DNA of 64,000 bases, taken from the NCBI GenBank assembly GCA_024641025.1, contig JAHEDW010000132.1, positions 1 to 64,000 of the forward strand, read 5' to 3'. Each line of letters opens with the position of its first letter. The first letter of the stretch is position 1. This DNA comes from Gallionella sp. (GTDB taxonomy: Bacteria > Pseudomonadota > Gammaproteobacteria > Burkholderiales > Gallionellaceae). Under the pieces are notes generated by a model. That model did no database searches, had not been told where the DNA came from, and saw only the letters and a list, made by a program, of their open reading frames with translations. Made by a program: the position numbers and the translations under genes. Shown here piece by piece: positions 1,502-54,779 of this stretch.

Positions 1502-2578
1502 ATGCTGAATCGACAGATTGACCTTATATCGTTAGGTTGGAACAAGTGGTTCGAAGCGCAGGCCGACCTTTGCGCCAGCCACGAAAATACTTTCGCTCGG
1601 GTTGCTGCCGTTGATCGAGACCAGTTCTTGCTCATCAATCAGACCGGCCAATTCCGGGCAAAAATGTCTGGCCACTTTTTTTACCAACATGAACAGTCGC
1701 ACGAATTCCCCTGCGTAGGGGATTGGGTGTGCGTCACGAAGAATCCAACTGACGACTTCGCTCTGATTCGCTCTCTTTTGGATCGCAAGACTAGCCTGCG
1801 CCGTCGGTCGGTCGGAGACGGACATGGATACCAGATGATTGCGGCGAACGTTGATTACATCGTAATCGTTCAATCTTGCCACTACGATTTCAATCTGAAA
1901 CGTCTGGAACGTTACCTTGTCATGGTAACCGAGGGTGGTGCTGAGCCTTGGGTGCTGCTGACGAAGACGGATCTGGTTAAACCAGCCATCCTCGATTCCC
2001 AGTTGTCAGAGCTCCGTGCATCAGGAATTGCGGCACCGGTGTTCCCTTTGAGCAATATGACGCGAGAAGGCGTTGACGAGTTTATTAGGATGCTTCTTCC
2101 TGGAAAGACGTATTGCTTCGTCGGGTCATCCGGGGTCGGCAAGAGCACTCTCATCAATGGCTTGATTGGTAGAGACATGCTCGAGACTAATAACGTCAGT
2201 GGCACGGGCGAGGGACGGCATACGACGGTCCGTAGGGAACTCATCCTCCTTGAGGGTGGAGCGCTAGTTATCGACAACCCGGGGATGCGTGAGTTCGGAA
2301 TACTTGGCGCAGATAGCGGACTCGGCGGAAGCTTTTCCGATATCACTTCTCTCGCTGCTGCTTGTCGATACAGGAATTGCAGTCATACCAACGAACCTGG
2401 CTGTGCTGTAATCAAGGCACTTGAGGCTGGTGAAATTGGGGTAGAGCACTATGACAATTACTTCAAGCTCAGCGAAGAGTCCGCGTTCAGCCAAATGTCC
2501 TACGCTGAGAAGAGAAAGAAAGATCGCGATTTTGGTAAATACATAAAGTTAGCGAAAAAGGACCTGAAACATGACTAG
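1502..2578 (+). CDS. rsgA: Ribosome small-subunit-dependent GTPase A (RsgA/YjeQ-like)
   Basis: Circularly permuted GTPase motifs: LTKTD, GSSGVGKSTLINGLIG, DNPGMRE; C-terminal zinc-binding CRYRNCSHTNEPGC. The upstream ORF extension (1088-1501) runs into the IS110 element, so the start is set at MLNRQIDLISLGW. Confidence 0.88.
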   Translation: MLNRQIDLISLGWNKWFEAQADLCASHENTFARVAAVDRDQFLLINQTGQFRAKMSGHFFYQHEQSHEFPCVGDWVCVTKNPTDDFALIRSLLDRKTSLRRRSVGDGHGYQMIAANVDYIVIVQSCHYDFNLKRLERYLVMVTEGGAEPWVLLTKTDLVKPAILDSQLSELRASGIAAPVFPLSNMTREGVDEFIRMLLPGKTYCFVGSSGVGKSTLINGLIGRDMLETNNVSGTGEGRHTTVRRELILLEGGALVIDNPGMREFGILGADSGLGGSFSDITSLAAACRYRNCSHTNEPGCAVIKALEAGEIGVEHYDNYFKLSEESAFSQMSYAEKRKKDRDFGKYIKLAKKDLKHD

Positions 2579-2624
2579 GTGTGCGCGGCGAATTGACTTG
2601 AAGGTCCGCTTTCTCTGAGTGGCT

Positions 2625-2652
2625 ACTTCCGCTTAGGGCAAAAAGCGGAAGT
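2625..2652. terminator. 10-bp perfect inverted repeat (ACTTCCGCTT..AAGCGGAAGT), possible terminator after rsgA
   Basis: Inverted repeat read directly; no clear U-tract. Confidence 0.35.
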
Positions 2653-2872
2653 TAGGGTTGGTGTAGGGTAGGTCCGCTCCCCAGCGTAAAGCCGACATAC
2701 AATTGATCAGCCGTTAATTTCGGCATAGGCGGAGAAGCCGACGCTTTGAAGGGACTTTGAAGGAACTGAATTGTAAAAAGCACTATAAGACAGTCGTTGA
2801 AGGGGATGTGGGATTGGTTAATAAATCATTTAAAACATAGTGTTGTATACAAACAATCAAATCGACATCCAA

Positions 2873-2906
2873 GGGGTCGTTGGTTCGAGTCCAATCGTGC
2901 CTTCCA
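2873..2906 (+). repeat. tRNA 3'-end fragment (T-arm + acceptor + CCA), possible att-site remnant
   Basis: GGGGTCGTTGGTTCGAGTCCAATCGTGCCTTCCA: T-stem GTTGG/CCAAT around loop TTCGAGT, then acceptor CGTGCCT, T, CCA. There is no matching 5' half upstream. Confidence 0.7.
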
Positions 2907-2912
2907 AAAATA

Positions 2913-2956
2913 CAATGGGTTAAATCAGAAACGGTCTAGCCCATTTTTCTTTTAAG
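2913..2956 (+). terminator. Possible terminator hairpin downstream of the tRNA fragment
   Basis: ATGGGTT..AGCCCAT followed by TTTTCTTTT. Confidence 0.35.
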
Positions 2957-3323
2957 GGACTCAAATATTTTGAGACAATCCCAACTATCGCAATGTGTCC
3001 GAATCAGTGCTTGGCAAACGATTTATTTCGGGTTATGAGGTCAGCGAGTTTTAGTTCCGATTGGTGCCAATAACAGACTTTGCGATCGGCAGCTTTGCGG
3101 TTGTGAATATTGGGAAGTAGGCAGTCGATTTGTCCCAGAAGTGGACAGCAGGAGTATTATTAATACCACGTTGGATATTTAACTATTTACTGTCTGCCCA
3201 GGCCAATGAACTAGTGCCAGTATTGCCGAAACATAGCAAGAATGGATTCTTTCATCTTGTGTTGATGATACTGATTCCGTATACATTGATTTTCTAGACG
3301 AAAAAGTGATTTAACCTGACTTC

Positions 3324-3917
3324 ATGTCCAATAATTATCAATCCTTAAAGACAAATCATTCTCAGTCAGCAAGATGGTTGCTAGCGATATTGACTGTCTC
3401 CGCATTTCTAATTGAACTACTGGTTCTGCTTCTTTCGGGCATATTGCCGGACATGCCAAAGATAGCCAGGTATCTATTGGACTCAATTATTTCGGCTACA
3501 TTACTTTTTCCAATATTCTACTTTATGGTTTTCCGCCCCATGTTGAAGAACATTACCAAGCTCAAGCAAGCAGAGGAAAATTTACGCATTATCTCTGTAG
3601 CTTTTGAGAGCAAAGATCCTATCCTGATTACGGATGCGAACTCAAATATCCTCCGAGCCAACAATATGTTTTTACGAATCACTGGCTATACTGCAGAAGA
3701 AATAGTCGGGAAAAACTCCCGCATCTTCAAATCGGAACGATATAACTCGGATTTACACAAAAACATGTGGGAAAAGTTGTTACACGCTGGTTCATGGCGA
3801 GGGGAAATTCGTATTAAGGGGAGTGATGGTCGTGAAGTTCCTGCAGGTGTTGTGATCACCGCAGTAAAAGATGAACGGCAAGAAACTACCCATTATGTGG
3901 CAATATACAATCTATAG
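3324..3917 (+). CDS. Membrane-anchored PAS-domain protein, ends right after the PAS domain (possibly truncated)
   Basis: Two N-terminal hydrophobic segments, then NLRIISVAFESKDPILITDANSNILRANNMFLRITGYTAEEIVGKNSRIFKS..GSWRGEIRIKGSDG. Stops at HYVAIYNL with no output domain. Confidence 0.75.
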   Translation: MSNNYQSLKTNHSQSARWLLAILTVSAFLIELLVLLLSGILPDMPKIARYLLDSIISATLLFPIFYFMVFRPMLKNITKLKQAEENLRIISVAFESKDPILITDANSNILRANNMFLRITGYTAEEIVGKNSRIFKSERYNSDLHKNMWEKLLHAGSWRGEIRIKGSDGREVPAGVVITAVKDERQETTHYVAIYNL

Positions 3918-4120
3918 GCAGGACGAATTCTGATTTGAGGAAGCAAGATTAAGGGATGTCTGTAGATATGTATTGAGAGTTGCATACAGTGGTTCTGCTA
4001 TACGGCGATCTGAATCATGGAAAAGCGTGCGACGGCATTCAGGCCGAGTCTATGGCTTGACCTGATATGGCAGGCAATCACTTCGTGCAAAATCCGACTG
4101 TTATTGAGTAGGAAATAATT

Positions 4121-4939
4121 ATGGCTAGTCTGGAAGCACACTATTCGGCGCGCGACATTGAGGCTAGAATCATGTCTGCAATCCGCGCGGCCGGTTTGAA
4201 TCCCGAGCAACGCCTTTCCCCGGAGGAACTGGGGGGGCTTGACCATTTCCACACGGGCGGATTCCGAGCTTCACTCCAGTTGTTGGAACTAGCGAAAATC
4301 CTGGCCGAAGATCGCGTTCTCGATATTGGCGCTGGTCTTGCAGGAGCCGCCCGGATGCTAGCTTTCACAACAGGTTGCAGAGTCGATTGCATTGAATTGT
4401 CACCCGATTATTGCGCTGGGGCGATATTGCTGAATCGGTTGACCGGCCTTGATGAAAGAATCACAGTACATAATGGCAGCGCTTTCGACCTGACTTTTCC
4501 CGAAAATTCGTTTGATGCAGTATGGATGCAAAATGTAGGCATGAACATCTCCGACAAGCGGAAGCTCTATGAGGAGGTTTGTCGGGTCCTCAAGCCTGGC
4601 GGGCGGTTTGCTTTCCAAGAAATGACCTCCGGTGAGCAAGCGGCTTCGTTCCATTTTCCACTACCGTGGGCCACCGATCCTGGGGACAACTTCCTAATTT
4701 CTTCCGAGGAGATGCATTCGGTTCTTGTCGAGAGTGGATTCATCGCTGAATCCTTCGAGGATGCAAGCGACGAAATATTGAATGGACCTCATGTGAGTGT
4801 GACTCCCGAAGTCACCGCGCAGATTCAACTCGGCTTGTCGGTATTCGTCGATAATCTTGCGGAAAAAGCCGGGAATGCAAGGCGCAGTCTTCAGGAGCGT
4901 CAGATCCGCTTTGTAAGAGGTGTCTTCCGGGTGGAATGA
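4121..4939 (+). CDS. Class I SAM-dependent methyltransferase (sarcosine/dimethylglycine methyltransferase-like)
   Basis: VLDIGAGLAGAARMLA, CIELS, FDAVWMQNVGMNI, RVLKPGGRFAFQE motifs. Confidence 0.8.
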   Translation: MASLEAHYSARDIEARIMSAIRAAGLNPEQRLSPEELGGLDHFHTGGFRASLQLLELAKILAEDRVLDIGAGLAGAARMLAFTTGCRVDCIELSPDYCAGAILLNRLTGLDERITVHNGSAFDLTFPENSFDAVWMQNVGMNISDKRKLYEEVCRVLKPGGRFAFQEMTSGEQAASFHFPLPWATDPGDNFLISSEEMHSVLVESGFIAESFEDASDEILNGPHVSVTPEVTAQIQLGLSVFVDNLAEKAGNARRSLQERQIRFVRGVFRVE

Positions 4940-5129
4940 GCAACCGCACTGTTGCAACTTCTGAAACACAATTATTGATCGTGGCACTAAATTTCGTTTA
5001 GTGCCATTGATGGCTTTAAGATGGAATGAAGTTCTGCTCTTTGCAAATAGTTTCTGCACAAATAACCATCTTGTGATTAGAGAAAAACATATTATTTAAT
5101 ATTTAAAAGTAGAAGATTCACTATAAAAA

Positions 5130-5984
5130 TTACTGCGGTTTGCTAGAGTTGAATGACTGCAGATATTTTTGAGTCGAATTCGCTTCGATCACATTTCTTT
5201 GTTCAAGGATTAATAAACATCTATATACCAAATCGAATGACTTGTAACATGAGTGCGCTATCAAGCACAGATGTTTTATTTGAAGGTCATCAAAGTCGTC
5301 TGGGTAGTGAAAATCCTTCACATAAACCATATCTGCCTCGAGTAGTTGGTGTAGAGGTTGTCTCGGGTCATTGTTTATTACAAATGGGGATATAATTCCT
5401 CGTTTTATCGCTGCAAATCGATGCGGAATAAATCCTTGTTTTCGCAATTCAATGTCGACTTCTCCAAACGAAGGTTGGTTCTCATACAAATTAACAAACG
5501 AAACTTCTGTTTGTATCACAACTGAATTTGAAAGTTTATTGTTTGCGTTTTGAAATACCTCTAGCTCACCACCTTGAATATCAATTTTAAGAAAATCAAT
5601 ATATTTAACCTCATCTATATCATCTAATCTTCTGGTGACTAGGGGGATCTGATTAATGATTTGGGCATTTTTCTTATAAATACTGTAAACATCAAGGGAC
5701 GCGGCACTTGGCATTAGCGTGCTAGTCCAACCTGAATAGTTGCATATATTTAACGTCTTGGATGAGCCATTACCAACAGCATAAGGAAGATAGGTTTCAT
5801 TTGCTGACTTAGCGTTATTAAGCTTGGACAAGGCTTCATTCTGTGGCTCAAAACCGGTGACTTTGCACATACCATTAATGAGTAACTCCTTGTATGGCGG
5901 ATCTCCTTCGATTGGATTAGCCCCGATATCAACAACTTCAGTAACGCGCTCTAAATTTAATATTTCATGAAGTTGCTTAGGCAT
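5130..5984 (-). CDS. FkbM-family methyltransferase
   Basis: VVDIGANPIEGDPPYKELL, VTGFEPQ, RLDDI..YIDFLKIDIQGGELEVFQNA..VVIQTEVSF. Confidence 0.8.
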   Translation of the reverse strand: MPKQLHEILNLERVTEVVDIGANPIEGDPPYKELLINGMCKVTGFEPQNEALSKLNNAKSANETYLPYAVGNGSSKTLNICNYSGWTSTLMPSAASLDVYSIYKKNAQIINQIPLVTRRLDDIDEVKYIDFLKIDIQGGELEVFQNANNKLSNSVVIQTEVSFVNLYENQPSFGEVDIELRKQGFIPHRFAAIKRGIISPFVINNDPRQPLHQLLEADMVYVKDFHYPDDFDDLQIKHLCLIAHSCYKSFDLVYRCLLILEQRNVIEANSTQKYLQSFNSSKPQ

Positions 5985-6386
5985 AGAAAATTTGTTCGTC
6001 CTTGTTCATTTAGTGATTTCCTGGGATTTCTTAGAGAGTGTACTTCACACGATTTGATTATATATGTATCAGCAAGAATTCCTTTGAAATTTAGCATACC
6101 TACTTGAATAAATAGGTCCAGAAGATCCATGTCCTTGATAAGTATATTCAATATCCGACAGGAGCGAAAAGCAGATACTTTAATTATCTATAATTATAAA
6201 TATTTTGTATTGAAGTTTTGAGAAGAATATATTCCCCTAATGCTATTCCGTATTTTGCCTCAACTTTGAAAGCCCTTTTTATATGAATGCCGAAGTCTGT
6301 TATTAATTCGGAAGTGGAATTTGGCGAAAATCCACTATATTGCTAAATTAGAATCAGTTGCTGGCCATATTAATCTAGCCTCTCAA

Positions 6387-7328
6387 TCACAATGTGAAGA
6401 TCAGATCTTCCATGATGTAACGATAAATATAGTTCGGGCCATGAAACTCTGCTGACTTGCTGTAACCTAATCGGGTCCTGAAAAATATCATTCCAGCGAA
6501 CGGACTAGTGGCTGCAAACTCCAGAAGCTGAGTGGTAGTATTCGGGCCTTGATCTATCTGTTGTTGCCCTAATCCTGCCGTTCCGTTTAGATTCCAACCT
6601 GCTAGGCGCCGCCTAATGCCAAGCGCCAACATGACCTGGGAATATCTGTTCGGGTTGAAATAATAATTGTTTTGCTTTGTGTTATTGCTGCTGTGATATT
6701 GACGATACCTTAACTGTGTGGTCACGCCATACTCGGGTAATAAATTGTAGATGATATTTAATCTCATCAGGACACGTGTATTGGTATCAGAGAAAAATAT
6801 TTTTCCACCCATGCCGACAAGGGTAATGCGTTCTAATAGTTGTTGCTCAATGCTCGCTCCAGCGAGAGTGTAGTGGATACCATTCATAAGTGAGTTTTGC
6901 GTTTCGACGCGATCTCGGTTAACAAGTATTTCTCCTGTCGTGCTATTCGTGAGCCTGGTTCCATATTGGCTGTCAGTAGTGAAAAGCTTGTAACCATTTT
7001 CAACGTTAAAGCCCAAATTCAAGTTGTATCCCAAGGCGGTTCGTGGATTGATTGCTATGGTTTTCAATGTGACCTGATTGGCGGACGAACTCCAGCTACC
7101 TTGAGTAAATTGATTATGCAGATATTCAATTCCAGTATATTTATCACCATGTTCATAAAGGGGATAGAATCCCGCCCGGTACCTGTATGTACTAAATCTT
7201 TCACTATCTGTTGATGCGAAGAAATCAGGAATCGAAATCGCTTGTTTCCATTTGAATTCGTCTGCCAAACACGCATTGCTTAAAGCAAAGAAAGTAGTCA
7301 ATAAAGTTATCAATATCGTGTGTTTCAC
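6387..7328 (-). CDS. Secreted outer-membrane beta-barrel-like protein coupled to the glycosyltransferase gene
   Basis: Signal peptide (MKHTILITLLTTFFALSNACLA), alternating amphipathic aromatic strands, terminal F-T-L; start overlaps the stop of the GT2 gene (7325-7328). Confidence 0.6.
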   Translation of the reverse strand: MKHTILITLLTTFFALSNACLADEFKWKQAISIPDFFASTDSERFSTYRYRAGFYPLYEHGDKYTGIEYLHNQFTQGSWSSSANQVTLKTIAINPRTALGYNLNLGFNVENGYKLFTTDSQYGTRLTNSTTGEILVNRDRVETQNSLMNGIHYTLAGASIEQQLLERITLVGMGGKIFFSDTNTRVLMRLNIIYNLLPEYGVTTQLRYRQYHSSNNTKQNNYYFNPNRYSQVMLALGIRRRLAGWNLNGTAGLGQQQIDQGPNTTTQLLEFAATSPFAGMIFFRTRLGYSKSAEFHGPNYIYRYIMEDLIFTL

Positions 7329-8680
7329 TTGGTACCCCAGATCTTTCGCATGCCCGTAAATTCTGATAGGTAGCCGAGTAGGCAGGCTGGCTGAAGAATT
7401 ATTCCGTAAAACAAGGCGTAAAACCCGAATGCGAAAGGGTTCTTTCGGACTTTCAGGCCTTGTTCAGTAAACATCTTTGACTGCAGGAAATACATAATAT
7501 AGTTGACCAGCATTGAGAGTGGAAGTACCAGTAGAGTCATTGGTCCTGCAATCCAGTAGTATCCAAAAATTGCCAAAATTATTCCGGGTAGGAAGAAAAA
7601 CGTATAAATAAAATCCATGAATGGGAATAGTAGGTTCCACCAGATGAAGATTGTTATCAAACGTAAGTGGAACAGGAGTTGCCAGTGATGTTTGAAAGCC
7701 TCAATTAAACCACGTGACCAACGCTGACGCTGTCTTATGAAATTCTTGAACGTAATTGGTGCATTAGTGAATGAACACGCATCTTCGCAATATCCAACAC
7801 GATAGCCGCGTTTGAGAATCGCCCAAGTGAGGACAATGTCCTCGCCCAAGCATTCGGGCCATCCACCAAGCTCATGCAATATGTCAGTACGATAAATGGA
7901 GAAGGCTCCCTGAGCTACCAACGTTCCTTGAAACAAACTCTGCAAGCGCTTTATGGCGGCAATCCCATGGAAATAATCCCATTCCTGGATTTTTGTCACA
8001 AAATTATGGCGCGAGTTGCGCACAAGTACTGCACCTGCAACTGCACCTGTATTATGGGGGTCACTGAGAAAGCGTCCAACAAGGTTCGGTAGGGCGTTCG
8101 CATAGAGATAAGAATCTGCATCGAGAGTAATCGTCAGCGCAAAAGTGGCCTGTTTAAGTCCTACATTGAGTGCGTTTGCCTTGCCACCGTTTTTCGGAAG
8201 ATCAATTACTCGCAGCCATGGATAGGAGATATTAGCGAGCTTCTCAATCGTTCCATCGGTCGAGCCATCATTGATGACGATAACCTCAATCTGTCCTGAG
8301 TATTTTTGAAGCGCAATGCTCTCTAGCGTGTTAACAATCGAACTTTCCTCATTGTAGGCTGCTACAAGGATAGTGACATCAGGATAAATTAAAATAGGCT
8401 TACGCTTTGGACGACGATCAAGCAAGAGTCCAGTAACAAGGAAAGCGTTCATGAAGCCGGGCAGGATGGCGATGCCCAAGATGACAATGTTAGCGATCGG
8501 TGCGCCGACGAGTCCCGAAAGATCAGATATCCACCGCCGTGCGATCCAATAAGAAAATATCGCCCATGCCGACGCAATTGTCAGCGCTAGCGCAAACTTG
8601 ACTCGTACTGACCAGTATCCTTTTCTGGACATACCAAGGTCATTCGCAGTATCAAGCTGCTTGGGTGATGTTTCTACCAA
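7325..8680 (-). CDS. Membrane glycosyltransferase family 2 (PgaC/BcsA-like, processive)
   Basis: VTILVAAYNEESSIVNTLESI, VINDGSTDGT, LDADSYL, GEDIVLTWAILKRG, QRQRWSRG, plus several TM helices. Confidence 0.88.
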   Translation of the reverse strand: MVETSPKQLDTANDLGMSRKGYWSVRVKFALALTIASAWAIFSYWIARRWISDLSGLVGAPIANIVILGIAILPGFMNAFLVTGLLLDRRPKRKPILIYPDVTILVAAYNEESSIVNTLESIALQKYSGQIEVIVINDGSTDGTIEKLANISYPWLRVIDLPKNGGKANALNVGLKQATFALTITLDADSYLYANALPNLVGRFLSDPHNTGAVAGAVLVRNSRHNFVTKIQEWDYFHGIAAIKRLQSLFQGTLVAQGAFSIYRTDILHELGGWPECLGEDIVLTWAILKRGYRVGYCEDACSFTNAPITFKNFIRQRQRWSRGLIEAFKHHWQLLFHLRLITIFIWWNLLFPFMDFIYTFFFLPGIILAIFGYYWIAGPMTLLVLPLSMLVNYIMYFLQSKMFTEQGLKVRKNPFAFGFYALFYGIILQPACLLGYLSEFTGMRKIWGTK

Positions 8681-9102
8681 TTGTATATCCCAAGCTATTA
8701 ACAGCGGATTAAGGAATAGATTACATTTTGTCCATTTTTTACATTTATGCTGCTGCGGGCATATCTATGTCAATATTCCAGCTAAATGAATTTTAAAATG
8801 TTAACCACGTAAGCCTCAGTCGCGCTGATTGATGCAATTACTGTTTATATGTATAACCGTTTTAAGTCTCTTTTACAGCGGCAAATATGCCACAACAAAC
8901 GCAAATTAGATAGCACATAAAGTGACATTATGGAAGCATTTCGAGGTAAATCAACTGTTAACAAATACTAACCGCAATTAATTATTCTGGAATTCTAGAG
9001 TTCACACTGATACCAATTAACGTCTGTTTGGAAACGCTCTAAGCATCGTATTGCTGCCAAAGATTTTTCAGTATGCAGAATCTTTTGCAGTTATTCTCGC
9101 TC

Positions 9103-9783
9103 TTAGCGCGGGGAAAGTCTCATCTTCAAGTATGCCTTTGGATTTGTTTGTTGTTGGTAATGTTTGTAGGACTTAATTGCGAAGTAGTGAGGATTTAGTG
9201 CGTAGTAGAGTTCAGTAATTTCAGAGTCATTCTCAAAGGCATCAAGATTAGGGTGTGTGTCGAGAATTCTTGAGCGGTACTGCTCTGGCAAAACGGAAAA
9301 TTGTGCTACAGCGGCAACGTATTCATGAATTGCTCTCGATGGGCAGGCCTGGTCACAACCCTCATGGATTGCAGCATGAGCGAGTTCATGAACAATGTAA
9401 CTTTTCCAAAACGGAAGCGAATCTATCGACCACAAATTGGTTTCAGACTCCTTTGATTGAGATGTCGTAGGGCCATAATTCTTTATAACAATCGTTCGTA
9501 ATCGTGCGTTGTAATGACCAATTTCGTTGCTATGAACTAACGGTGATGTTTCATTCTCAAGCAGAATAACTAATTTGCTTGGCATTGGCAGGCCTGCTGA
9601 TTGAAAGAAATGGGCAGCGTCTTTTACTGCGTCGCAGACATAAATGAAATTTTCGCTGCTGGAGCTTTCAATCAGGATTTCATTGCTAGTGCATTGAACT
9701 TGATCCGCGCGGAGGGATTTAGACCACATGCCAAACATAAGCAGCGTGATAGAGGCCGCAATATTAATGTAGTGTGTTCGCAT
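9103..9783 (-). CDS. Secreted hypothetical protein with HExxH-type motif (putative metallopeptidase-like)
   Basis: N-terminal signal region; YIVHELAHAAIHEGCDQACPSRAIHEYVA. Confidence 0.5.
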   Translation of the reverse strand: MRTHYINIAASITLLMFGMWSKSLRADQVQCTSNEILIESSSSENFIYVCDAVKDAAHFFQSAGLPMPSKLVILLENETSPLVHSNEIGHYNARLRTIVIKNYGPTTSQSKESETNLWSIDSLPFWKSYIVHELAHAAIHEGCDQACPSRAIHEYVAAVAQFSVLPEQYRSRILDTHPNLDAFENDSEITELYYALNPHYFAIKSYKHYQQQTNPKAYLKMRLSPR

Positions 9784-12858: not shown

Positions 12859-14160
12859 CTATGATTCGCGTTGCCTATAGGAAAATACCAAACCTTTGAC
12901 CCCACTGCGGTTTCTGAGTGTAATCGTTCCCTTGAACTGATCTGCAATGCTGCGTGCGATTGCTAGACCAAGACCACTTCCGACTTGAGAATTGTTGGGC
13001 AAACGGAAAAATGCTTCGAAAACACGATCAAGTTCTGTAACCGGAATTCCAGGGCCATTGTCGATTACTTCCAGTATGGCATAGCCATTATCCCTACTAA
13101 TTCTGACAGTTACTTCGCCACCTTCTGGAGAATATCGGATCGCATTATCTACGGCATTACGCAGCATCAACTGAATTGCAGAGGCATCGGCATCAATCTT
13201 CGCATCCGCTTCTTTGGATAGACCAAGATCGATATTTTTTGCTTCGGCTATCGGCATCATCTCCTCGATAACACCTAGTGCAACCGATGCTAAATCAACA
13301 ACATCCAACTTGGTTGAGCTTGCTTGCTGCCGTACCAGATCTAGTAATTGATTTAGAAGGTGTCGCGATCTCTCAAGTCCGTCTTTCAGGGGTACCAGAC
13401 GCTCTTTGCTGATGGCAAATGAACCGGTTTTTTCTATATTTTGTGCTTGCAAAGAAAGTGCGGTTAGCGGTGAACGTAATTCATGTGCAGCATCGGCAAT
13501 AAAACGACGTTGCGATTCATTCATCAGGTTAATACGTTGCAATAGTCGATTGATGGCATGTATGAAAGGGGCGACTTCGTCGGGAACTCGACCAGTAGGC
13601 AAAATGGAAAGTCGCTCCTCATTCTGTGTATCAATGATCTCTGCAAGGGTGCGCAATGAGGACATCTCGGACTTGATGATTCTCCGTGAGACAAGAATCA
13701 ATATCGGAATCAATACCAGCAATGGCAATAAAGTAAGCAAAGCGCTGTCTTGAGCCATGGATTTTCTTGCGGCAGACTCCTGGGCTACAGCAACGCGCCT
13801 TCCTAGAATGGTGGCGTAAATGTAGATACGCCAGTCTAAACCATCAATCTTGACTGTATGATATCCCGTAGACAAATTCGCGGGAAGTTTAAGCAATGGT
13901 GGAAGTTCGTTTGGTGATGCGATGACCGGTTGTACAACTATTCGCTTTGGGTCACTATCAATTGATTCTAATATCCTTTCATCTTCAAGCGGAGTTTTGT
14001 AGGTATCGACCAACAGGGCGATTTGACGAAGTTTATCGTCCTGAAAGTCCTGCGCTTCGCTATAAGATAGCCAGAATGAAAAGCCGGAAGCAAGCAGACT
14101 GATAATTAATATGGCGATACTGAGCCAGATGAACAATTTGTTTTGGAGAGAATTATTCAT
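12859..14160 (-). CDS. Sensor histidine kinase (QseC/TctE-like)
   Basis: FIADAAHELRSPLTALSLQ (H-box), NAVDNAIRYSPEGG, DNGPGIP, GSGLGLAI; start overlaps the regulator stop. Confidence 0.9.
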   Translation of the reverse strand: MNNSLQNKLFIWLSIAILIISLLASGFSFWLSYSEAQDFQDDKLRQIALLVDTYKTPLEDERILESIDSDPKRIVVQPVIASPNELPPLLKLPANLSTGYHTVKIDGLDWRIYIYATILGRRVAVAQESAARKSMAQDSALLTLLPLLVLIPILILVSRRIIKSEMSSLRTLAEIIDTQNEERLSILPTGRVPDEVAPFIHAINRLLQRINLMNESQRRFIADAAHELRSPLTALSLQAQNIEKTGSFAISKERLVPLKDGLERSRHLLNQLLDLVRQQASSTKLDVVDLASVALGVIEEMMPIAEAKNIDLGLSKEADAKIDADASAIQLMLRNAVDNAIRYSPEGGEVTVRISRDNGYAILEVIDNGPGIPVTELDRVFEAFFRLPNNSQVGSGLGLAIARSIADQFKGTITLRNRSGVKGLVFSYRQRES

Positions 14161-14819
14161 TTATTTCGCGCCACCATCCAACCTGCACCACGAACATTCT
14201 TTATCGCATCTATACCAAGTTTTTTTCTGATGCCATGTATCAAGAAATCAACTGCGTTGCTTTCTACTTCCTCATTCCATCCGTAGATACTCTCTTCCAA
14301 TTGTGCTCGTGTAAGTATCGTACCAGGGCGAATCAACAAAGCTTGTAATAAGGAAAATTCACGTGCACTTAATAGGCATACCACACCACCTTTGCTTGCT
14401 TCGCGGGTTGCTGGATCAAGGTTAATGATTCCGTTGCTAAGTAAAGGAGTTGCCTGCCCGCCTTGGCGACGAAGTGTGGCTCTTAAGCGAGCGAGCAGTT
14501 CGTCAATATCGAATGGTTTGGTTAAATAGTCATCGGCACCCAGATCAAGGCCTTTGACTCGATCTTCGATGCCGTCTCTTGCAGTGATGATTATTACGGG
14601 TAATGTTGTACCATTAGTACGCAGTTTTTTTAGGACTTCAAGTCCGTCACGGCGAGGCAAACCCAGGTCAAGTAATACAGCATCATGTTCGTGATTATCC
14701 AGAACCCTTAAGGCTGTCTCTCCGTCTTTAACCCAGTCAACTGCATATGCGGCATCGCGCAACGCCACGCACAACGCGTCGCCAATCATCTGGTCATCTT
14801 CAACTAGCAAAATACGCAT
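14157..14819 (-). CDS. OmpR-family response regulator (QseB-like)
   Basis: MRILLVEDDQMIGDAL..VLLDLGLPRRDGLEVL..TKPFDIDELLARLRA..winged-helix C-terminus. Confidence 0.92.
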   Translation of the reverse strand: MRILLVEDDQMIGDALCVALRDAAYAVDWVKDGETALRVLDNHEHDAVLLDLGLPRRDGLEVLKKLRTNGTTLPVIIITARDGIEDRVKGLDLGADDYLTKPFDIDELLARLRATLRRQGGQATPLLSNGIINLDPATREASKGGVVCLLSAREFSLLQALLIRPGTILTRAQLEESIYGWNEEVESNAVDFLIHGIRKKLGIDAIKNVRGAGWMVARNK

Positions 14820-14891: not shown

Positions 14892-17054
14892 TCAGAAATC
14901 CCAGCGGTATCCTAAATTAAAGTATTTTTTCCGCGATTTGTCATCCTGTTCTGGGGTGATGGTATGTGAAAGTACAAGTCCGGCACCAACCTCAAAATTA
15001 AATGCTTTGTTCATACGATAGCTTATTCTGAAAGAAGGGCTGATGCGAGTTAGATTTACACTCATATTGTTGTTCTCATCGTAAAGCTGAACTGAAATAT
15101 TGAATTGAAGCTTTTCACGGAATGTGGCAACTTGGCTATATGATAGTGCTCTCCCGTTGTAGGTGCTTGCATTGGTATAACTTGCACTTATAACGCCCAA
15201 GTCATTGCTGAACAGTAAATTACTGCCAATTACTTGGGCAGAATAGATATAAGCCCATATTCTTGGATAAATTTCCCTTGCATTTATTAAAGGATCAGCA
15301 TTGAATGCTTCATAACTTGTCGTGTTAGTGGCCCTGAAATCACCCCCAAGTTTTATGTGGGAAGATAAGGGTTGTGTCATTCCAAACATGAACTGGTTGT
15401 ATATTGGACTTGCCAGAAGCGCATTGCTACGCAGGTACTCTGGAGTAGCACCCGAAGTGATCATTCCTTCTATCGATTCGCCTGGTTGTTCAAGCCTCAA
15501 AGCGTTTGTGATTTCCAGGTTTCTACGTTGTTCAATCAACAAGGTATAGTTGGCTCCACCCATGGTTGTCCAGTTTCCCTGGATCAAACCTATGTTGAGT
15601 TTTTTGAACAGCGTGTCATATTCAAATAAACCCATGTGGTTGTTTTGCTTGTTGAAATAATGCGTTTCAAGGCCAACCGCGCGTTTATCCATGACTTTTC
15701 CAACGCGCTGGCCAATTAGGTAGGTATTGCCGCTCCACTGTCCTGGTAATCTTGAAAGATCTACGCTGATGGCAGAAAATATCTTTGATTCTTCGGTGCT
15801 TCCTGGAGCAAGAACGGGTACTCCCAATGCGCCATTTACCCTCCACCTGGAGCTAAATTTTCGATTCAGCCAAGCTCCGTCAAAGCGGCTTGGCAATCCT
15901 CCTGACGCTCCCGTTTGTCTGCCTAAGCCGTAGATGTATCTTTCGTCACTTGTTCCTTGCTCAAAATAAGCTGCGGTCAGGAAATTATTGTCTCCTGCGT
16001 ATGGTAAGAAATTAGCCGTGAAAGTGTCACGAAAGACCAAGCGAGTATCAGTAGTCTCAGTTCGCTTTTGTCCAGTCAGGTCCAAGGAGGATAAAAGCTG
16101 GTATTGGTCGTTACTGATTGAAGTGACAACCTCGGAAGTGGGAAGTAGCGTACTGTCAGTTTGCACAAAGCCTTTGGTGAAATATTGTGAGAACCCACCA
16201 AAATAGTTCATGCTGTCCGAAATTGCCAATTTCTCAGGAACTGATTTTTCTTCCTCGTATGCAGGCATGAATACACGTGCCAAACTAGCCTTGGCCTGAT
16301 TCAGGTTGCTTGCCTTGGGATATTGATTAATGTACAAACTATAGCTGTTTCTGGCTTTGACAAACTCCTTGTTTCTTTCATAAGCCTGACCAATCATGTA
16401 GTTGGCAGTTTGAGTCTGTTGATTTGGAGGCAATCCGAGCAACTTGGTCAGTATGTCGATTGCTTCTTGGTTTGAGTTGTTATTCAAGGCGATACCCGCT
16501 TGATAGATCAACTGCTTGGCTTCTGCTTCATTAGCCGCTATTTCCTCAGATCCTTGAAGTACCACTATTTTGGCTGGAGAGGAGGCAGTCACTGATGGAG
16601 TGAGCGCAGGAATCCCTTGAGGTTTGCCGGACAGTTTTGTGATTGGCGTATAGATGCTTATGCTTCGGCCATCATTCCCCGGGCGAATATGGTAATCAAC
16701 CGGCCTTCCGAAGCTGATGGAAAGGGATGAATCGATCTCCGGGTAGGTGACAGTGAAATGCGGGGCAATGTTAGAAGGCGGAGAGTCTCTTTTTTGCCAT
16801 GTCAATCTCGGATCTGCAGCATCTATTTCAAGGAGGTTGAAATAAATTCTGACATCGCCGTTTTTCAGCATTACCTGCCGCACATACTGGATGCGTGTAA
16901 CAAAACGTATCCTGATTTCGGCCTCATTGCCCGCTTGAAAGATCTGAATCCGATCAATGACTTCAGCGTGTACTGGTTTGACTGCAATACCGAAAAGGCA
17001 CAATATGCCTAGCAAGTATGCGCCTATTAACTTTATTAATAAATTGGACTTCAA
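14892..17054 (-). CDS. TPR-containing secreted protein with C-terminal beta-barrel-like region
   Basis: Signal peptide; TPR-like AKQLIYQAGIALNNNSNQEAIDILTKLLGLPPNQQTQTANYMIGQAYERNKEFVKARNSYSLYINQYP; C-terminus ends in ..KYFNLGYRWDF. Confidence 0.55.
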   Translation of the reverse strand: MKSNLLIKLIGAYLLGILCLFGIAVKPVHAEVIDRIQIFQAGNEAEIRIRFVTRIQYVRQVMLKNGDVRIYFNLLEIDAADPRLTWQKRDSPPSNIAPHFTVTYPEIDSSLSISFGRPVDYHIRPGNDGRSISIYTPITKLSGKPQGIPALTPSVTASSPAKIVVLQGSEEIAANEAEAKQLIYQAGIALNNNSNQEAIDILTKLLGLPPNQQTQTANYMIGQAYERNKEFVKARNSYSLYINQYPKASNLNQAKASLARVFMPAYEEEKSVPEKLAISDSMNYFGGFSQYFTKGFVQTDSTLLPTSEVVTSISNDQYQLLSSLDLTGQKRTETTDTRLVFRDTFTANFLPYAGDNNFLTAAYFEQGTSDERYIYGLGRQTGASGGLPSRFDGAWLNRKFSSRWRVNGALGVPVLAPGSTEESKIFSAISVDLSRLPGQWSGNTYLIGQRVGKVMDKRAVGLETHYFNKQNNHMGLFEYDTLFKKLNIGLIQGNWTTMGGANYTLLIEQRRNLEITNALRLEQPGESIEGMITSGATPEYLRSNALLASPIYNQFMFGMTQPLSSHIKLGGDFRATNTTSYEAFNADPLINAREIYPRIWAYIYSAQVIGSNLLFSNDLGVISASYTNASTYNGRALSYSQVATFREKLQFNISVQLYDENNNMSVNLTRISPSFRISYRMNKAFNFEVGAGLVLSHTITPEQDDKSRKKYFNLGYRWDF

Positions 17055-17320: not shown

Positions 17321-17350
17321 AAATCCCCATCGATATTTCGATGGGGATTT
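17321..17350 (-). terminator. Strong rho-independent terminator for the CxxCH protein gene
   Basis: Perfect 13-bp stem AAATCCCCATCGA/TCGATGGGGATTT with T-rich tract on the minus strand (ATGGGGATTTTTTAATTTTTTC). Confidence 0.85.
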
Positions 17351-17371: not shown

Positions 17372-17938
17372 TTAGTCATCGTGGCTTTTGCTACTATTAC
17401 GGCCACTGCGGCGGTGAGTGCTGCTGCGACTATACGATGATTCACGAACTGCGACTTGATGATCATCATCAGATTCCCTGCTCATGCTTGTCTCGCGACT
17501 GGAGCTGCTGGATGCGACTGTTGAAGAGCTGCTTGAATGACATGTTGAACAAGCTGTACCGGTAGAATTCACATTTTTGTGGGCAGAAACGCTGCTTGGA
17601 GCAGTTCCCAATTGACAAGCACCACAACTCTCAGAGGTCCTTCGTAAGGTAATGCTTGCAGTAGTTGTAGTCTGTACGGGAACTTGGTTTGTGGCCTGTG
17701 TTGTTGTCTGCGTTGTTGTCTGCGTTGTTGTCTGCGTTGTTGTCTGCGTTGGCGTAGTCGCAGCAGTGTGGCAGGTTGTACAAACAGTACTTGAGTTAAC
17801 AAATGTATGGGAAGCGGGTTGTGCACCGACCACGCAGGAACCGCAGGAAGGAATCGCAAACGCATTACCTGCAAACATTGCTGGCAATGCCAAGGCGGAC
17901 GCTAAAACAAGGGCTTTTACGGTATTCATTGACTTCAT
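17372..17938 (-). CDS. Secreted protein with two CGxC..CxxCH units, TQTT-repeat linker and Ser/Arg-rich tail (putative small c-type cytochrome-like)
   Basis: MKSMNTVKALVLASALALPAMFAGNAFA signal; CGSCVVGAQPASHTFVNSSTVCTTCH and CGACQLGTAPSSVSAHKNVNSTGTACSTCH; RBS GGAGGC upstream of 17938. Confidence 0.65.
   Translation of the reverse strand: MKSMNTVKALVLASALALPAMFAGNAFAIPSCGSCVVGAQPASHTFVNSSTVCTTCHTAATTPTQTTTQTTTQTTTQTTTQATNQVPVQTTTTASITLRRTSESCGACQLGTAPSSVSAHKNVNSTGTACSTCHSSSSSTVASSSSSRETSMSRESDDDHQVAVRESSYSRSSTHRRSGRNSSKSHDD
17700..17752. repeat. 12-bp tandem repeat encoding (TQTT)n
   Basis: Repeated tgttgtctgcgt units, about four copies. Confidence 0.85.
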
Positions 17939-18173
17939 GCTGCCTCCTAAGAGATTAATGATCATGTGCACTTTGATATGCAGCTCATTTCGTTCGAGCA
18001 CGCGCACATTAACAAGCAACAATTAGCCGTCTATTAGCAAGAAAAAATTATTTGCTTTGATCGGTATATTCACCCGCATCAAGAATGCCGATATCAAAAA
18101 TGGCAACATTCACTTGAATCGGAAATTGTAGATCAGGACTATTGCAGATCAATCGAGAAATACAGAGGGTAAT

Positions 18174-54419: not shown

Positions 54420-54779
54420 TCAAGCTGTCTTCGGCTTTGGCACTACTTTTTTGTTAGCAGGTTTAGCTGCATTTTTGCCAGTATTTTTTACATTCTTAGT
54501 AGAGGTAGCCACTTTTTTGGAAGTGGTGACAACGTTGCTGGCGGCCTTACTTATCTTCTTCTTGGCAGTTGCAATCGCTTTTTTAGCGGATTTTTCAACT
54601 TTCTTTTCAGTTGCGGATACTCCTTTGGCGGCCTTACTTATCTTCTTCTTGGCAGTTGCAATCGCTTTTTTAGCGGATTTTTCAACTTTTTTTTCAGTGG
54701 AGGACACTCCTTTGGCGGTCTTACTTATTTTGCGTCCGGCATTTTTTACGCTACCCTTGATACTTTTCAATGTTCCCAT
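54420..54779 (-). CDS. Lys/Ala-rich histone-H1-like protein with 29-aa repeats
   Basis: Repeats KGVS(S/A)TEKKVEKSAKKAIATAKKKISKAA; strongly basic PKPKTA tail. Confidence 0.7.
   Translation of the reverse strand: MGTLKSIKGSVKNAGRKISKTAKGVSSTEKKVEKSAKKAIATAKKKISKAAKGVSATEKKVEKSAKKAIATAKKKISKAASNVVTTSKKVATSTKNVKNTGKNAAKPANKKVVPKPKTA
54541..54740. repeat. 87-bp tandem repeat (two full units plus a partial third) inside the H1-like gene
   Basis: gcggccttacttatcttcttcttggcag at 54541 and 54628, gcggtcttacttat at 54715. Confidence 0.9.

Follow-up and report, generated by a model that had tools for sequence, protein, structure and literature searches.

A small exported protein and its neighbors

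We analyzed a window of 64,000 nucleotides (64 kb) from a 2.5-Mb Gallionellaceae genome (G000). Its minus strand carries a short gene, hereafter the unit gene, whose product had been described in the original prediction as a secreted protein with duplicated CGxC..H..CxxCH units, a description borne out by the sequence and by the Cys/His pattern kept in its relatives (Table 1). The open reading frame, whose coordinates include the stop codon, encodes 188 aa when counted from MKSMNTVK. An AGGAGG motif lies just 5' of this ATG, and an alternative longer frame starting from TTG is possible. By inspection, the signal sequence ends with ..FAGNAFA and is followed directly by IPSCGSC. The two units follow the patterns CGSC-x8-H-x8-CTTCH and CGAC-x11-H-x9-CSTCH and contain all eight cysteines of the protein. 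The TQTT linker is encoded by a 12-bp tandem repeat, as had been claimed, and the tail expected to be rich in Ser, Arg and His is present as a charged Ser/Arg/His/Asp tail. The AlphaFold model of the 188-aa protein was uninformative (pLDDT 47), and predicted disorder suggests that the protein is largely unstructured.

The next gene encodes an outer-membrane porin and is followed by genes for a response regulator and a sensor histidine kinase. Directly upstream of the unit gene, and on the same strand, lie the type II secretion genes GspC/F/E/D/N. Elsewhere in the window, an 87-bp tandem repeat (54539-54728, 2.2 copies) apparently encodes a Lys/Ala-rich (histone-H1-like) sequence on its minus strand.

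Table 1. Features of the unit gene and its neighbors (positions in the window)
Feature	Positions	Strand	Description
Sensor histidine kinase	12859..14160	-	75-77% identical orthologues, confined to genomes that have the unit-porin block
OmpR-family response regulator	14157..14819	-	84-85% identical in other unit loci
PCC3-type porin homologue	14892..17054	-	Next gene after the unit gene; N-terminal beta domain, TPR domain, 22-strand barrel
Intrinsic terminator of the unit gene	17321..17350	-	13-bp stem, T run
Unit gene	17372..17938	-	188-aa exported protein; two CGxC..H..CxxCH units, TQTT linker, Ser/Arg/His/Asp tail
Unit 2 (SCGACQLGTAPSSVSAHKNVNSTGTACSTCHSS)	17531..17632	-	Profile match E 7.8e-15; the profile itself includes the window sequence
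12-bp tandem repeat	17696..17751	-	Encodes the (TQTT)n linker; 4.7 copies, 97% matches
Unit 1 (IPSCGSCVVGAQPASHTFVNSSTVCTTCHTA)	17762..17854	-	Profile match E 7e-13; the profile itself includes the window sequence
Short inverted repeat/hairpin	17983..17999	-	GCTCGAA..GAGC; between the box and the Shine-Dalgarno sequence; present in most unit genes
Conserved box	18010..18037	-	CTAA-N7-CTAA-N-T-N-T-N7-TA upstream of the unit gene; 11-bp direct repeats, half-sites GCTAAT

A rare family with an invariant Cys/His pattern

The unit family is rare: relatives of the unit gene were detected in 5 of 158 Gallionellaceae genomes (G000, G033, G036, G087, and G089), and no convincing member was found in the 399 genomes sampled from the order, 369 from the class and 399 from the phylum. 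Two matches in G405 and G747 (near E 7e-4) were partial and look spurious, and two others (L010 and L003) had only CxxCH in common with the family; all four were discarded. The family comprises nine proteins with one, two or three units each. Across their 16 units the residues C, G, C, H, C, C, and H are invariant while the remainder diverges, which indicates that the pattern is beyond chance and answers the check on Cys/His conservation that had been suggested. The first cysteine pair has the form CGxC or CGxxC. Because His never comes immediately after it, it does not constitute a haem motif; the last motif is always CxxCH. The linkers are low in complexity and dissimilar between proteins (TQTT, PTVTT, DPVVK, TPTP, GGTT). 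The tails of all nine proteins contain His and Asp, and most end with DD, ND or DN.

A conserved block of unit, porin and regulators

The order unit-porin-response regulator-histidine kinase is found on a single strand in the window and in loci L008 and L009, as well as in L088, where one extra gene encoding a DUF4382 lipoprotein separates the unit and porin genes. Orthologues of the histidine kinase with at least 75% identity are restricted to the four genomes that carry this block, the next best match being 47% identical. In G087, two unit genes lie on one short contig, which stops before a porin would be seen, and the unit genes of L086 and L089 are orphans with no adjoining porin.

A DUF4382 lipoprotein gene lies directly 3' of three unit genes (57-64% identical; L123 638-1855 (-), L088 9924-11144 (-), and L089 from 1713 (+)). 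This lipoprotein follows the orphan unit genes of G000:C117 and G036:C3. Since DUF4382 is shared by the L088 block and these orphan genes, the ancestral block may have been unit-DUF4382-porin-response regulator-histidine kinase.

The type II secretion genes suggested another reading, in which the protein is a substrate or accessory of that system. The adjacency reported in the original prediction is real in the window, but it is not conserved: in none of L008, L009, L088, L086 and L089 do type II secretion genes adjoin the unit gene, which makes this neighbor incidental. The conserved box and terminator further define an independent transcription unit, and we regard a role in type II secretion as highly improbable.

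The unit gene resembles a self-contained expression cassette

The conserved box precedes all nine unit genes exactly, including the two orphan copies distant from the regulator, and its exact core GCTAAT-N5-GCTAATT occurs once in the window. Across the five genomes the box pattern yielded 16 matches, nine of them before unit genes, against two for the reversed control. Half-sites spaced by 11 bp are typical of OmpR/PmrA-type direct repeats. The candidate half-site here, GCTAAT, resembles the published PmrA half-sites YTTAAK and CTTAAT/CCTAAG without being identical to them (PMC10927774). More exact copies of the box are found in G000 shortly before genes for envelope or secreted proteins (G000:C105:29956-29983 (-), G000:C16:1318-1345 (-), and G000:C117:34642-34669 (-)); we make no claim for these copies because the reversed control also yielded two matches in G000.

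Covariation in the hairpin of the 5'-UTR is weak and involves one closing pair, which is either G-C or A-T. The gene had been described as short and strongly terminated, in agreement with the stem-loop at its 3' end: the 76-nt stretch containing the terminator folds at -21.9 kcal/mol (z = -3.6). Similar stem-loops are found 3' of other unit genes, and a search of Rfam returned no match. With its conserved box, inverted repeat and 3' stem-loops, the unit gene looks like a self-contained expression cassette, and it is probably under the control of the neighboring regulator.

The porin falls within the PCC3 family

The AlphaFold model of the 720-aa porin (pLDDT 80) shows 22 strands along with a TPR domain and an N-terminal beta domain, and Foldseek recovered only generic outer-membrane barrels with this model. 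Homologues of the porin were found in 73 of the 158 genomes of the family. In the 14 porin loci that we read, the gene immediately before the porin encodes a cytochrome with many CxxCH motifs (11-36 where complete), which is mostly preceded by another with 21-24 CxxCH. In complete clusters, a further gene product carries SGxxG and two copies of WX3HX13H, the motifs of the PCC3 inner-membrane protein. PCC3 is composed of a porin, extracellular and periplasmic multihaem cytochromes and an inner-membrane protein, and is a proposed conduit (PMC5566968, 2017; PMC10734462, 2023). Because the gene content of these complete clusters equals that of the published PCC3 cluster, we consider them to be PCC3.

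With the nearer PCC3 porins, the porin of the window shares 38-48% identity. In the porin tree, the four porins associated with unit genes formed one clade (100/100) nested inside the PCC3 porins. This topology suggests that a PCC3-type porin was recruited once.

The gene immediately before the porin is cytochrome-like, as in PCC3, where this slot belongs to the giant extracellular cytochrome; here it is taken by the small unit gene. Whereas this slot encodes 10-36 CxxCH in PCC3, it holds one to three in the unit loci and two in the window, short of the extracellular cytochrome with at least 10 CxxCH that defines PCC3. No other ORF of at least 90 aa in the 64-kb window contains CxxCH, and the periplasmic multihaem cytochrome (about 21-27 CxxCH) is therefore missing. 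The inner-membrane protein, recognized by its two WX3HX13H motifs and its SGxxG, is absent from the window, L008, L009 and L088, whereas its motifs are present in L085, L090, L091, L097, L098, L101, L102 and L104. Instead of these components, a response regulator and histidine kinase pair follows the porin. The PCC3-family porin is present and the other three of the four defining features fail, and we consequently do not file the locus as PCC3. We propose to call it a "mini-PCC3" by position rather than by membership.

The genome of the window also contains a full PCC3 cluster on contig C117 (L085, G000:C117:10000-24000, 1545-9491), with cytochromes of 21 and 27 CxxCH, a porin and the inner-membrane motifs; an orphan one-unit gene is located 13 kb from it on the same contig. 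A second PCC3-like porin of this genome is found on C105 with an 11-CxxCH protein (L087, G000:C105:15000-30000, 6168-9513). At this locus, and likewise at L092, only a cytochrome with 11-14 CxxCH precedes the porin and no multihaem periplasmic partner was seen. Porins of this type form a separate deep clade in the tree.

The shared position immediately before a PCC3-type porin, together with the similar CxxC..H..CxxCH layout, raises the alternative that the unit protein is a degraded PCC3 extracellular multihaem cytochrome, the leading haem motif of every pair having turned from CxxCH into CGxC by loss of its His. We consider this quite improbable. When scored against the profile of the extracellular repeats, the unit did no better than shuffled sequences keeping its Cys and His (161 of 400 shuffles scored as well), and we found no similarity beyond the Cys/His pattern; a degenerate copy of this repeat was accordingly rejected. 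Decay is also at odds with a CG pair that is strictly conserved and with a number of units that varies from one to three whole copies. Against the PCC3 periplasmic repeats, 13 of 400 shuffles scored as well, a slight excess in one among several tests.

Do the units bind haem?

The features of a c-type cytochrome are present: the protein has an export signal (by inspection), and CxxCH and the candidate distal His are invariant in all 16 units. No curated cytochrome c family of Pfam or NCBIfam matched the unit protein at cut-off; the closest models, all below it, were cytochrome c (PF00034, E 0.012) and cytochrome c7 (PF14522, E 0.014). The unit resembles cytochrome c7 and doubled-CXXCH domains (PF14522, PF09699) in its short repeats and in combining CxxCH with a nearby distal His. 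It differs from them in its scores below cut-off, in a CGxC pair that lacks the His and in carrying one haem motif per ~30-aa unit. The view that CxxCH represents haem c attachment is therefore upheld as probable by the sequence and the conserved Cys/His, although not by any cytochrome model at cut-off. The suggestion that the CGxC pairs could indicate Fe-S binding found no family match and was abandoned. The architecture had been called unrecognised, which is true of the protein, for which no Pfam or NCBIfam model reached cut-off; the adjoining PCC3-type porin and the conserved block had been overlooked. We also rejected a bufferin-like modified peptide, as no processing enzyme was noticed among the neighboring genes.

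The main rival to a cytochrome is metal sensing for the kinase. The unit gene would then encode a secreted, haem-free protein in which the four Cys and two His of each unit, together with the His/Asp tail, hold iron, zinc or copper or switch between thiol and disulfide states, feeding the adjacent histidine kinase or scavenging metal, with the porin as a passage. The CGxC pair that is never followed by His, the His/Asp tails of all members, the co-inherited kinase and a locus lacking an electron-transfer partner are all in line with such a role. Nevertheless, a bis-His haem c site requires precisely a CxxCH and a separate invariant His, haem is normally attached to exported CxxCH proteins when the genome is rich in cytochromes, and the porin descends from within a family of cytochrome-associated porins. 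Overall, we judge metal or redox sensing to be unlikely.

It is also conceivable, but improbable, that the protein is a low-complexity extracellular structural or matrix component, for example of a sheath or binding minerals, whose units serve as disulfide cross-links and whose association with porin and regulators is incidental. Linkers rich in Thr, Gly, Pro and Ser, the His/Asp tails, a short mRNA with a strong terminator, predicted disorder and the DUF4382 lipoprotein adjoining three unit genes would suit such a protein. Cross-linking, however, requires neither an invariant CxxCH nor an intervening His, and the linkage to the porin and regulators is conserved.

A possible mini-cytochrome and porin module

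Our preferred reading, to which we give somewhat less than even credence, is a small exported c-type cytochrome that works with the adjacent PCC3-derived porin and is regulated through the box by the adjacent kinase and response regulator. Each CGxC..H..CxxCH unit would bind one haem c, hence two in the protein of the window: CxxCH would attach the haem covalently and provide its proximal His, the invariant His between the two motifs would act as distal ligand, and a disulfide formed by CGxC would hold the unit together. At the 22-strand porin, this mini-cytochrome would replace the giant extracellular multihaem cytochrome and pass electrons on, either at the outer membrane or just beyond it, while the His/Asp tail may bind iron or mineral. 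The histidine kinase and response regulator would set expression through the 11-bp direct-repeat box, and the terminator would yield a separate short mRNA. Any inward route from the porin would need components from other loci, for example the full PCC3 cluster of contig C117. Since no periplasmic partner is encoded at the locus, the module must borrow other periplasmic carriers or do something other than transmembrane conduction. Several observations weigh against a cytochrome working with the porin: the lack of a cytochrome model at cut-off, the uninformative structure prediction, the absence of similarity to PCC3 extracellular repeats beyond Cys/His, the missing periplasmic and inner-membrane components, the orphan unit genes and the rarity of the family.

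The combination of a single-haem domain with an outer-membrane barrel is reminiscent of Cyc2 of iron oxidisers (PMC8406198). In contrast to the fused 16-strand barrel of Cyc2, the unit loci have separate genes, a 22-strand porin with a TPR domain and a different Cys/His layout; the Cyc2 motif AXPXFAR is absent from the window and the unit loci, which thus do not encode the single polypeptide of Cyc2.

One to three haems on floppy linkers could not form a fixed wire. A bolder interpretation, which we consider somewhat unlikely, is a previously undescribed redox module made of a repurposed PCC3 porin, a floppy mini-cytochrome with one to three units and a metal-binding tail, and its own two-component system, acting as a tethered shuttle in place of a rigid wire. 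A limited literature search returned no earlier description of a unit-porin-regulator module.

How electrons cross the outer membrane of neutrophilic iron oxidisers is an open question on which this locus bears, and PCC3 itself has not been tested functionally (PMC12442390). A natural PCC3-type porin associated with a regulator and a putative one-to-three-haem protein, and missing the giant haem wires, constitutes a small expressible system in which the role of the porin and the number of haems needed can be asked. The porin clade, the unit and the regulator box together provide a marker for loci that are easily overlooked by searches for proteins with many haem motifs. In this iron-oxidising family, such loci may represent a slimmed-down or altered PCC3-type electron-transfer machinery.
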